Assembly (NCBI RefSeq): GCF_009646335.1
Contig: NZ_WJBU01000009.1
Location: 1-64,000, forward strand
Direction of reading: 5' to 3'
DNA: 64,000 nt
Source of the DNA: Caenimonas koreensis DSM 17982
GTDB lineage: Bacteria > Pseudomonadota > Gammaproteobacteria > Burkholderiales > Burkholderiaceae_C
Notes under the pieces: model-generated
What the model saw: the letters and a program-made list of their open reading frames with translations, nothing else
The model's database searches: none
Told to the model about the DNA's origin: nothing
Shown here: positions 56,804-58,741 of the stretch, piece by piece
Layout of the letters: every line of letters starts with the position of its first letter
How positions within the stretch are numbered: the stretch's first letter is position 1
Made by a program: the position numbers and the translations under genes

Positions 56804-57352
56804 TCAGTGCGTACGGCCAGCGCGGTACATGCCGGTCGTCTTGCGTGTGGCATCCACAGCTGTCGCAATGCGCGCCATCGATGCGCCCGCGTGGGCATGC
56901 GTGATCGCCAACCCAAGCGCATCGGCTGCGTCTTTGCCCGGCAGCCCCGGCAGCTTCAGCAAGCGCTTGACCATCTCTTGCACCTGCGCCTTCGCGGCTT
57001 GACCGTGCCCTGCGACGGCGCGCTTCATTTGCAGCGCGGTGTATTCGGCCACCGGCAAGTCGCATGACACCAGAGCTGTGACGCACGCGCCGCGCGCCTG
57101 GCCGAGCAGGAGCGTGGCCTGCGGATTCACATTCACAAACACGATCTCAACGGCGGCAACATCAGGCTGGTAGCGCGCTTTGACTTCGGCGATGCCGTCG
57201 AACAAAACCTTCAGGCGTGCAGGCAGGTCGCCGCGCGAGAGATGTGTGGTGGTGATGGTGCCGCTAGCGACGTAAGTCAGCGCTGCGCCATTGACATCAA
57301 CGACGCCAAAGCCAGTCGTCTGCAGGCCAGGGTCAATGCCGAGAATTCGCAT
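56804..57352 (-). CDS. ruvC: Holliday junction resolvase RuvC
   Basis: A 182-residue endonuclease that cuts Holliday junctions with RuvAB. Catalytic acidic residues: Asp7 in [19 protein letters not shown], Glu near residue 69 in [20 protein letters not shown], and two Asp near residue 140 in [16 protein letters not shown]. The [18 protein letters not shown] segment is typical. The usual ruvA and ruvB partners are not next to it in this window. It is followed upstream by a 390-base gap with two palindromic repeats. Confidence 0.95.
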
Positions 57353-57379
57353 GGTGCATTGTCTCTCGATTCGGGGTCA

Positions 57380-57504
57380 GGACGCGGCCGCTGTGTGGCC
57401 GTTTCCCTCCGTGTCATTCCGCCGCCCTAATTGCGAAGCACCCTACTGGTGCTGGCGAGCTCCCTTCTTTACCTGCGGGAAACGGCCACACAGCGTCCAC
57501 GTCC
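57380..57504 (+). repeat. Palindromic repeat element A (ruvC upstream gap)
   Basis: Arms of 28 bases at 57380-57407 (GGACGCGGCCGCTGTGTGGC...) and 57477-57504 pair with two mismatches. The inner core (57408-57476) contains TCCGTGTCATTCCGCCG on the left and GCTCCCTTCTTTACCTGC on the right. The core is the reverse complement of element B's core, apart from the middle. It lies in the 390-base gap between ruvC and the CdsA-like gene, in which I see no gene. Confidence 0.8.
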
Positions 57505-57601
57505 TCGCACTGTGCGGTTGGCGATCAACTCTGTGACAACCGCTGTGTCTTGTTTAACGTGCAGCGGTGATCACTGAGTAAATACTGAACCGCTCTGAGC
57601 A

Positions 57602-57705
57602 GGCTGCGAGCGATGGGCGGCCTTTTCCCGCAGGTAAAGAAGGGAGCCCGGCCTCGTGGCCGGCGGAATGACACGGAGGGAAAAGGCCGCCCATCGCTCG
57701 CAGCC
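57602..57705 (-). repeat. Palindromic repeat element B (upstream gap)
   Basis: Perfect 28-base inverted arms at 57602-57629 (GGCTGCGAGCGATGGGCGGC...) and 57678-57705. The inner core carries GCAGGTAAAGAAGGGAGC on the left and CGGCGGAATGACACGGA on the right, with a central CCGGCCTCGTGGCCGG palindrome. The core blocks match element A in inverse orientation. The outer arms differ from A's but are self-complementary. Confidence 0.85.
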
Positions 57706-57742
57706 CACCCCTGAACAGAAGGCGCAAAACAACAAGAGGCAA

Positions 57743-58741
57743 TCACACCCCACCAGCCCCACCAAAATACCACCGCACCGAATGAAAAAAGATCGGCGCC
57801 GCAAAACACAACGCATCGACACGATCCAGCAGACCATTCGCGCCAGTAACCGACATCGTGCGCTTGCCCCATGACGTCACACCGCGATCACGCTTGAGCG
57901 CCTTCATCACCAGGTGCCCCATCGACCCTGCGACACACGCGATGAACGCCATCGCCAGCGCCTGGCCCGGCTTGAAGGGCGTGATGAATGACAGCACACC
58001 ACCGGCAAAACTGCCAACGATCATGCCCAGGCCCCAGCTGAGCCAGTTGAAGCTCTTGCTCACCTCGGGCAGGCTGGGCGCACGCTTGAGGCGACGCGCG
58101 ACCACGTACTGCACGAACATGCAGGTCTGCACGACAAACACCAGGAAGAACACGAGGAACGCGCCTTTGCCCTGGTACTTGCGGAACTCAAGCAGCAGCA
58201 GCGCCGGCACATGACTCATGCCGTAGATGCACACCATGATCCCCCACTGCAGCTTGGCGTTGCGCTCCAGGAAGCGTTGCGTGTCGCCCGCAAGCGCGCT
58301 CGCCAGCGGAATCGCAAGGAACACATAGACCGGGATGAACACAGTGAACAAGTCAAAGTGGCGCGATCCCGCCAGCCAGTACTGCACGGGCAGGACGATG
58401 AAGAACGCGAGCACCAGGCTGTTGTGATCGCCGCGCCGTGTGGGCGACAGCGTGATGAACTCGCGCAACGCAAAGAACGAGATAAAGGCAAACAGCACCG
58501 TCGCGAAGTAGTTGCCGGCCGCCCACGCAAGCCAGAACGCGATCACCATGAACCATGAGGTGCTGAGCACCGCGCGGAAATCGCGCAACTCGCCCAGGCG
58601 CGCTTCGTCCTGCTCGGTGGTGGCACGGCGGAATGTGAGCAGGAAGGCGGTGACGCTCACGACGATGAGCACGCCAAACACGATGAGGAACAGCACGCCG
58701 ACTTGCTGCGTCGAGGTGAGGCCGCGAAGATACTGGTTCAT
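57743..58741 (-). CDS. CdsA-like phosphatidate cytidylyltransferase
   Basis: A 332-residue inner-membrane protein with 8-9 helices. The CdsA family signature lies near the C-terminus: HLVMKALKRDRGVTSWGKRT, then MSVTGANGLLDRVDALCFAA, with the Asp-Arg-x-Asp arrangement. It should make CDP-diacylglycerol from phosphatidate, although this long form lies beside a PlsC-like gene and resembles the E. coli YnbB paralogue rather than the essential CdsA. It lies 3 bases after the acyltransferase gene, so the two form a phospholipid-synthesis pair. Confidence 0.8.
   Translation of the reverse strand: MNQYLRGLTSTQQVGVLFLIVFGVLIVVSVTAFLLTFRRATTEQDEARLGELRDFRAVLSTSWFMVIAFWLAWAAGNYFATVLFAFISFFALREFITLSPTRRGDHNSLVLAFFIVLPVQYWLAGSRHFDLFTVFIPVYVFLAIPLASALAGDTQRFLERNAKLQWGIMVCIYGMSHVPALLLLEFRKYQGKGAFLVFFLVFVVQTCMFVQYVVARRLKRAPSLPEVSKSFNWLSWGLGMIVGSFAGGVLSFITPFKPGQALAMAFIACVAGSMGHLVMKALKRDRGVTSWGKRTMSVTGANGLLDRVDALCFAAPIFFHSVRWYFGGAGGV

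Follow-up and report, generated by a model that had tools for sequence, protein, structure and literature searches.

The DNA stretch analysed here, which we refer to as the window, comprises 64,000 nucleotides of Caenimonas koreensis DSM 17982 and carries two palindromic elements, A and B, in the spacer between ruvC and a CdsA-like gene (Table 1). An earlier note on this DNA had described two inversely oriented elements between these genes, and indeed the cores are inverted and both neighbours were confirmed by Pfam. The arm complementarity given there was reproduced, as B pairs at 28 of 28 positions and the 26 of 28 reported for A agrees with the 93% that we obtained over 29 nt; the core blocks GCAGGTAAAGAAGGGAGC and CGGCGGAATGACACGGA are likewise shared as quoted. 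Only the distance between the elements had to be corrected, from 97 to 96 bases, the coordinates and arithmetic otherwise being sound. The folding z-scores of the two strands are -9.9 and -9.1 for B and -8.3 and -8.0 for A, and none of the shuffled sequences folded equally well. With a covariance model of the repeat family, which we call E, exactly two matches were obtained in the window at E <= 1, namely A (3e-13) and B (7e-16). The latter value is partly by construction, as three of the 51 rows of the model stem from the C. koreensis genome and include B, not A. The exact limits of the whole unit are unproven; end motifs similar to those of the unit were recognised by eye at other C. koreensis copies.

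Table 1. Coordinates of the paired elements, their parts and the neighbouring genes in the window
Feature	Position	Strand	Basis or description
Element A	57379-57505	-	Divergent copy of E
Element B	57602-57705	+	Divergent copy of E
Whole divergent unit, cdsA-ruvC spacer	57370..57715		Imperfect inverted repeats at the two ends, TTCGGGG.. / ..CCCCTGAA
Element A 3' arm	57379..57407	-	Complementarity to 5' arm
Element A 3' core block	57408..57424	-	CGGCGGAATGACACGGA on - strand
Element A variable inner hairpin	57425..57458	-	Sequence and folding; longer than that of B
Element A 5' core block	57459..57476	-	GCAGGTAAAGAAGGGAGC
Element A 5' arm	57477..57505	-	Complementarity to 3' arm
Central spacer A-B	57506..57601		Halves similar to those of other genome copies (by eye)
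Element B 5' arm	57602..57629	+	Complementarity to 3' arm
Element B 5' core block	57630..57647	+	GCAGGTAAAGAAGGGAGC
Element B inner hairpin	57648..57663	+	CCGGCC-TCGT-GGCCGG
Element B 3' core block	57664..57677	+	CGGAATGACACGGA
Element B 3' arm	57678..57705	+	Complementarity to 5' arm
ruvC (neighbour)	56804..57352	-	PF02075, E 5.1e-46
CdsA-like CTP_transf_1 gene (neighbour)	57743..58741	-	PF01148, E 2.2e-28

The genome contains further copies besides A and B. With the A-B pair as query, blastn against the 4.6 Mb of C. koreensis gave 44 rows (both strands counted), the 18-base core was found at 17 places with up to three mismatches, compared with one place for the reversed control, and the covariance model yielded 21 matches (E <= 1e-3). 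The 16 distinct copies matched by pattern possess 15 different left arms, and their arm cells comprise 350 Watson-Crick, 13 G.T, no A.C and 13 other combinations. The earlier note would have been refuted by a lack of further genomic copies together with an absence of transcription, or by identical arms elsewhere; the first is ruled out by the 21 model matches and the second by arms that differ and nevertheless remain paired. None of the 14 C. koreensis copies that could be placed lies in an open reading frame (ORF). Since copies are situated at or beside the ends of the contigs C3, C10, C16 and C35, the repeat seems to interrupt the genome assembly.

Beyond this species, a degenerate-core scan of named genomes returned at least 110 stretches and revealed that E is widespread in Burkholderiales, the hosts among the listed stretches including Rhodoferax, Hydrogenophaga, Curvibacter, Ideonella, Roseateles and many Burkholderiales or metagenome assemblies. 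Model searches were run with strict filters, by which weak matches are lost, and recovered E in 29 of 59 genomes of the genus (E <= 1e-3), 12 of 300 of the order (1e-4), 12 of 150 of the family designated f21 (1e-4) and 10 of 398 of the phylum (1e-5), four of the last being from another order of the class; C. koreensis is counted in the genus, order and phylum figures. At blastn sensitivity, no plasmid record contained the window pair or one canonical E copy, and no phage record contained one canonical copy. Among 14 stretches of a viral collection that carry the core pattern, three (IMG/VR contigs L449, L451 and L458) have model matches, which may lie in host flank or in phage DNA.

The members of E share a common architecture. 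A long outer stem leads to an asymmetric internal loop that is fixed and rich in purines, and beyond the loop lies a short inner hairpin; both stems are largely free in sequence and are nevertheless kept paired. The loop, with the family consensus (G/A)T(A/C)AAGGAGGA ... GGGGGACA, is the most constant part across lineages, and the main subtype of C. koreensis reads AAAGAAGGGA ... GGAATGACA. Nearly all of the 114 elements of the listed named loci carry GCAGGTAAAGGAGGA, an inner hairpin and GGGGGACACGGA, and they vary greatly in the roughly 25 pairs of the outer stem; as these loci were retrieved with the degenerate core pattern, conservation of those letters is partly by construction. In an alignment of 51 diverse copies, 95.5% of the cells are paired (64.5% when shuffled), 29 of 31 pairs show changes on both sides (22.7 when shuffled) and the covariation score is 0.801, compared with 0.189 for the shuffled and at most 0.141 for the slid controls. 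Covariation extends to the pairs just outside the loop (AGGTA/CGG, AAGTA/TGG, GCGAAATA/TTCGC, GCGACATC/GTCGC and GCGGAATC/TCCGC) and into the loop itself, for which 324 distinct copies gave the combinations GA/GG (284), GG/AG (18), AA/GT (10) and 12 others (five GA/AG, two GG/GG and five singles). This count excludes the window subtype (AAGAAGGGAG / GGAATGACA) and is restricted to copies in which no fewer than 17 of the 20 outer positions pair. The exchanges of A.G for G.A and of G.G for A.T would fit a loop that is paired in a non-Watson-Crick manner, an inference from sequence alone. The proposal of the earlier note that conserved core and covarying arms reflect selection for a folded form is thus borne out, with covariation far above both controls and a loop that covaries outside Watson-Crick rules. 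No Rfam family matched E at the gathering score in what was scanned, which included 18 of the at least 110 named loci, and hits below threshold (mostly eukaryotic microRNA hairpins, isrG and a CRISPR repeat model) were rejected as generic hairpin matches. One of the 8-kb loci with an E copy also contains a cobalamin riboswitch (RF00174, L081:2004-2238).

We then asked which strand folds. At stem positions 1-20 of 110 distinct copies, read on the strand GCAGGTAAAG...GACACGGA, we counted 1980 Watson-Crick, 153 G.T, 18 A.C and 49 other combinations, without correction for relatedness. As equal use of both strands would give similar counts of G.T and A.C, a single-stranded fold of E's own strand, either as ssDNA or as RNA copied from E, seems to be selected. 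The ratio of G.T to A.C is 51:6 in 36 copies in sense orientation within a gene, 26:4 in 19 antisense copies and 76:8 in 54 intergenic copies. Since the antisense copies keep the bias, although the host mRNA would carry C.A there, the constraint is not on the host mRNA, and host-mRNA structure is disfavoured as an explanation. An RNA copied from the strand of E itself remains possible.

We compared the cdsA-ruvC region among relatives. ruvC was found in 56 of 58 genomes of the genus and 30 loci were taken, in 20 of which the upstream region was readable by pattern, the other 10 being lost. In eight relatives no more than a few dozen bases separate the end of cdsA (assigned by us from shared C-terminal sequence) from ruvC, an empty site, and in ten another gene is upstream. 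Since cdsA directly precedes ruvC in these eight, the window unit seems to have entered what was a very short spacer. Only C. koreensis and one other species (G003) harbor an E pair upstream of ruvC, each with arms of its own type; no model match was obtained at the other 28 ruvC loci, two hits with E-values of 0.3 and 0.76 being taken as noise. Inspection of the C. koreensis pairs by eye gave no recognisable target-site duplication, and the spacers are too diverged for a base-exact empty site.

In the listed named loci, 106 of the 114 elements could be placed, with at most 56 in ORFs, 33 in tandem, 13 in convergent and 4 in divergent spacers, and eight more are at locus edges. All spacers of these loci amount to 232 tandem, 63 convergent and 72 divergent ones. 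Divergent-promoter spacers are thus under-represented, accommodating 4 of 50 intergenic copies as opposed to 72 of 367 spacers (2 of 86 in the genus set). Location within ORFs accounts for 8 of 94 copies in other loci of the genus and for 2 of 39 in f21, the habit of the genus being mostly intergenic.

The placement in ORFs relies on a home-made gene caller based on codon usage, several of the ORFs score low, and 56 is an upper figure because seven copies merely overlap the first codons of an ORF or the cut edge. Both orientations occur, 19 of the 56 copies being antisense to the gene, and a single reading phase prevails (31 copies in sense and 15 in antisense orientation), giving peptides such as SAQVKEEPAQRAGDTEQ or SAPCPPPALRAPPLPAQ; in Mpl or MutL the insert reads ..SAQVKEEPAQRAGDTE.. 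or ..SAPCPPPALRAPPLPAQ... When 20 E-bearing proteins were scanned with NCBIfam, Mpl, HrpA, MutL and CobB scored above the curated cut-offs with their copies in frame, and AddA-like, XerC-like and Ada/AlkA-like proteins stayed below. Three further E-bearing proteins, without an NCBIfam hit at the cut-off used, we take to be ThiG-like.

Mpl was matched in 29 of 31 genomes behind named loci. Among 28 readable mpl genes, 17 carry E between the residues ARLG and FVIEADEYD (9 forward, 8 reverse), one carries another repeat and 10 are empty; L390 was lost to the pattern, its insert being seen as L113, and L418 was dropped as the second locus of the genome of L413. Nine of the 17 inserts add exactly 84 nt to the usual empty site of 93 nt, and the others are longer by different multiples of three. 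In an mpl tree computed with the insert left out, all inserts fall into one group of 24 rows (100/100), six of which lack an insert. The two orientations interleave on this tree, with nine changes over all states where three would be the least possible (midpoint root only). In close relatives of opposite orientation, L392 as against L402/L403, the left arm looks homologous by eye and the core is reversed, which suggests that the core can flip in place, although repeated insertion is not excluded. Agreement at fourfold-degenerate sites is 48% (327/686) and 52% (272/519) in the mpl host sequence and 78% (112/144, forward) and 100% (201/201, reverse) in the core; the core comparison was anchored on core words, which biases it upward in favour of conserved copies. 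Judged by this higher agreement, the mpl core is probably held at the nucleotide level or renewed by conversion. In the mpl genes L401 and L408, a second repeat family, CCCCCTCGGGGGGCAGC...GTGCCGAGCGTGGGGGCC (peptide APSGGS..VPSVGA), occupies the mpl loop that otherwise takes E, either replacing E or standing beside it.

In a set of 360 distinct E matches listed from the genus, order, f21 and phylum searches, in which repeats across searches were entered once and C. koreensis contig C35 was omitted, 65 of 66 neighbours within 350 bp are divergent, a proportion that is 12 of 19 at 350-4000 bp, 3 of 14 at 4-20 kb and 8 of 44 beyond 20 kb. The gaps in 36 close divergent pairs, among 217 matches listed, measure 43 to 198 bp. 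Non-divergent neighbours were met in the same direction at G470 C51 and at L217, and one convergent case appeared with a relaxed core. By eye, the members of a pair often bear different arm types, as left and right ends would. With the relaxed core and 21 edge cases dropped, 41 of the 45 usable in-gene copies are solo and 11 of the 48 intergenic copies have a divergent partner.

Wider pairs were inspected for what they enclose. The interiors of 11 such pairs hold host-like genes and no transposases, apart from one IS30-like fragment seen by eye; an autonomous transposon, or a MITE parent with a transposase between the same ends, was hence not found among these pairs. In C. koreensis (C3:36981-37857), a PF06983 (PhnB/VOC-like) gene (L247:1106-1594) lies between two divergent E copies, and homologues of this gene occur at other places in relatives. 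This would be consistent with translocation without proving it, and carriage of a gene by an E pair remains possible on such comparative grounds. Another divergent pair (L243:1871-2602, G008 C7) encloses an ORF of 243 aa without Pfam match at 1e-5.

A REP-associated transposase (TnpA-REP), the search for which the earlier note had proposed, did not emerge as the mobiliser. A Y1_Tnp match, usually one per genome, is present in 55 of 58 genomes of the genus as opposed to E in 29 of 59, and no significant E was found up to 1.5 kb on each side of 30 Y1_Tnp loci. Y1_Tnp is therefore neither linked to E nor does it track E, and a RAYT as mobiliser is not supported; the Y1_Tnp family is nearly universal in the genus. 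C. koreensis itself encodes a Y1_Tnp (PF01797) protein of 228 aa that we read as RAYT-like (L349:1465-2151, C38).

Three features favour the REP/MITE-like option among those raised by the earlier note, namely the number of copies, the empty sites and the fact that E is placed in both orientations. Our best reading, which we consider probable and by no means settled, is that E is a non-autonomous mobile palindrome whose fold is recognised by a trans-acting factor, the factor being inferred and unidentified. Such a factor would read the E strand in its folded, single-stranded form (ssDNA, or an RNA copied from E), via structure and loop sequence, and would copy or move E. Single copies would enter genes and persist if in frame, divergent pairs would be retained in intergenic spacers, for the most part not those with divergent promoters, and a core that flips in place between its inverted arms would account for the two orientations at one mpl site. 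By the same reasoning and with about the same assurance, we interpret A and B as two E copies of about 95 bases each, which in divergent order make up a single non-autonomous mobile unit of about 345 bp that came to lie between cdsA and ruvC by insertion. It is a more tentative suggestion, and one that we would sooner doubt than assert, that a so far undescribed Burkholderiales system mobilises folded single strands and uses E as its recognition structure, with solo copies moved in frame into housekeeping genes, spacer pairs that sometimes flank one gene, and a core able to flip inside a working gene. The near-identical mpl cores count against the best reading, as they are unexpected of a decaying passive insert, and host function or ongoing homogenisation may therefore be involved. 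The lack of a linked mobilising gene at the loci inspected, of a target-site duplication visible by eye and of an autonomous copy among the 11 wide pairs also counts against it, as do the few neighbours that are not divergent.

A repeat described previously bears on this question. The Beta-proteobacterial repeat element (BRE) of Bordetella and Comamonadaceae is about 90 bp long and of unknown function (Hot et al. 2011, PMC3110155), and E probably corresponds to it, although sequence identity has not been compared. According to the parts of that paper available to us, BRE is chromosomal and suspected to be mobile, has partial matches of 40-60 bp and occurs in Alcaligenaceae and Comamonadaceae including Rhodoferax; it is usually intergenic with some copies in coding sequences, and overlaps transcripts of about 80 and 200 nt, BprJ1 and BprJ2 (PMC3110155). 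On this partial evidence E resembles BRE as a repeat of about 90 bp in Comamonadaceae and relatives that sometimes lies inside genes. BRE was reported in tandem arrays, where 'tandem' may not mean the same orientation (PMC3110155), whereas we met no head-to-tail arrays of E, the close neighbours listed being divergent in 65 of 66 cases, and our sample contained no Bordetella. In the available text of the BRE paper, words beginning with palindrom- or stem- appear solely in the reference list, and there is no account of a hairpin, of covariation or of divergent pairing (PMC3110155). Apart from BRE, our literature search found no paper on E.

Because this probable relative overlaps small transcripts, an RNA function is the main rival to the mobile palindrome. 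E would then be a small structured RNA (an sRNA or the target of an RNA-binding protein), perhaps transcribed outward from the centre of a pair, and the repeats would be functional gene copies. The G.T tolerance on one strand, the RNA-like non-canonical covariation of the loop and the divergence of nearly all close pairs agree with this, as does the BRE overlap with BprJ1/BprJ2, which as support stands or falls with the identity of E and BRE in the absence of a sequence comparison (PMC3110155). Against it, roughly one in two placed copies of the listed named loci lies in an ORF, 19 of 56 of them antisense, 30 of the 59 species of the genus have no model match under the strict filters and no Rfam match exceeded threshold in what was scanned, and we regard this explanation as unlikely, if far from negligible. 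Less credible again is a bidirectional element of mRNA 3' ends, i.e. a terminator or stabiliser with a BIME-like host function: it would suit the under-representation of divergent-promoter spacers among intergenic copies, but in-gene copies occur in both directions, the window unit stands between two same-direction genes, and no T-run follows the stems of A or B in the window sequence, on which ground a terminator was rejected. We give very little weight to the view that the palindromes are passive and owe their perfection to template switching during replication (quasipalindrome correction), with no selection on the fold. It would account for perfect arms and in-place core flips but leaves unexplained why G.T exceeds A.C 8:1 on one strand, why the loop is near-invariant and shows reciprocal exchanges, and why E is present at new sites.

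For the mobile palindrome, parallels exist among known systems. Integron attC sites are recognised as a folded single strand in which the stem sequence is free and unpaired features are fixed. E is like attC in the recognition mechanism that we propose and unlike it in having no link to an integrase, no cassette array that we could see and a different motif. REP, BIME and REPIN sequences are multi-copy intergenic hairpins, arranged in inverted pairs with two arm types and recognised as single strands in the known systems; a REP or REPIN is a short hairpin whose foot carries a fixed tetranucleotide as a tag. E shares the multi-copy hairpins, the inverted pairs with two arm types and the intergenic location, and differs from REP/REPIN in its length of about 95 bases, its conserved internal loop with feet that are not conserved, and the lack of RAYT linkage in the 30 Y1_Tnp loci. 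Bordetellae are named among the hosts of REP-like repeats without terminal tags in the part of a further source available to us (PMC3733652). Rickettsia palindromic elements resemble E, as found in the named loci and not in the window copies, in being palindromes placed in frame in unrelated genes (PMC10969869). They differ in their length of about 150 bp and in belonging to another bacterial class, and they are not known to combine an internal loop of fixed sequence with stems that covary in a strand-biased manner. On our best reading, which here rests on analogy, E would behave as REP/BIME do where it lies between genes and as Rickettsia palindromic elements do where it lies within them.

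E in this way joins two behaviours that are usually described apart, namely REP-like intergenic pairs and Rickettsia-like in-frame protein inserts. Small palindromic repeats are common and the folded strand can rarely be identified, whereas the G.T excess of E indicates it directly. The loop sequence together with the free stems provides a search image toward the unknown partner protein, and the mpl alleles, some bearing an insert of at least 28 residues and others none, constitute a natural set for studying how proteins absorb foreign sequence.
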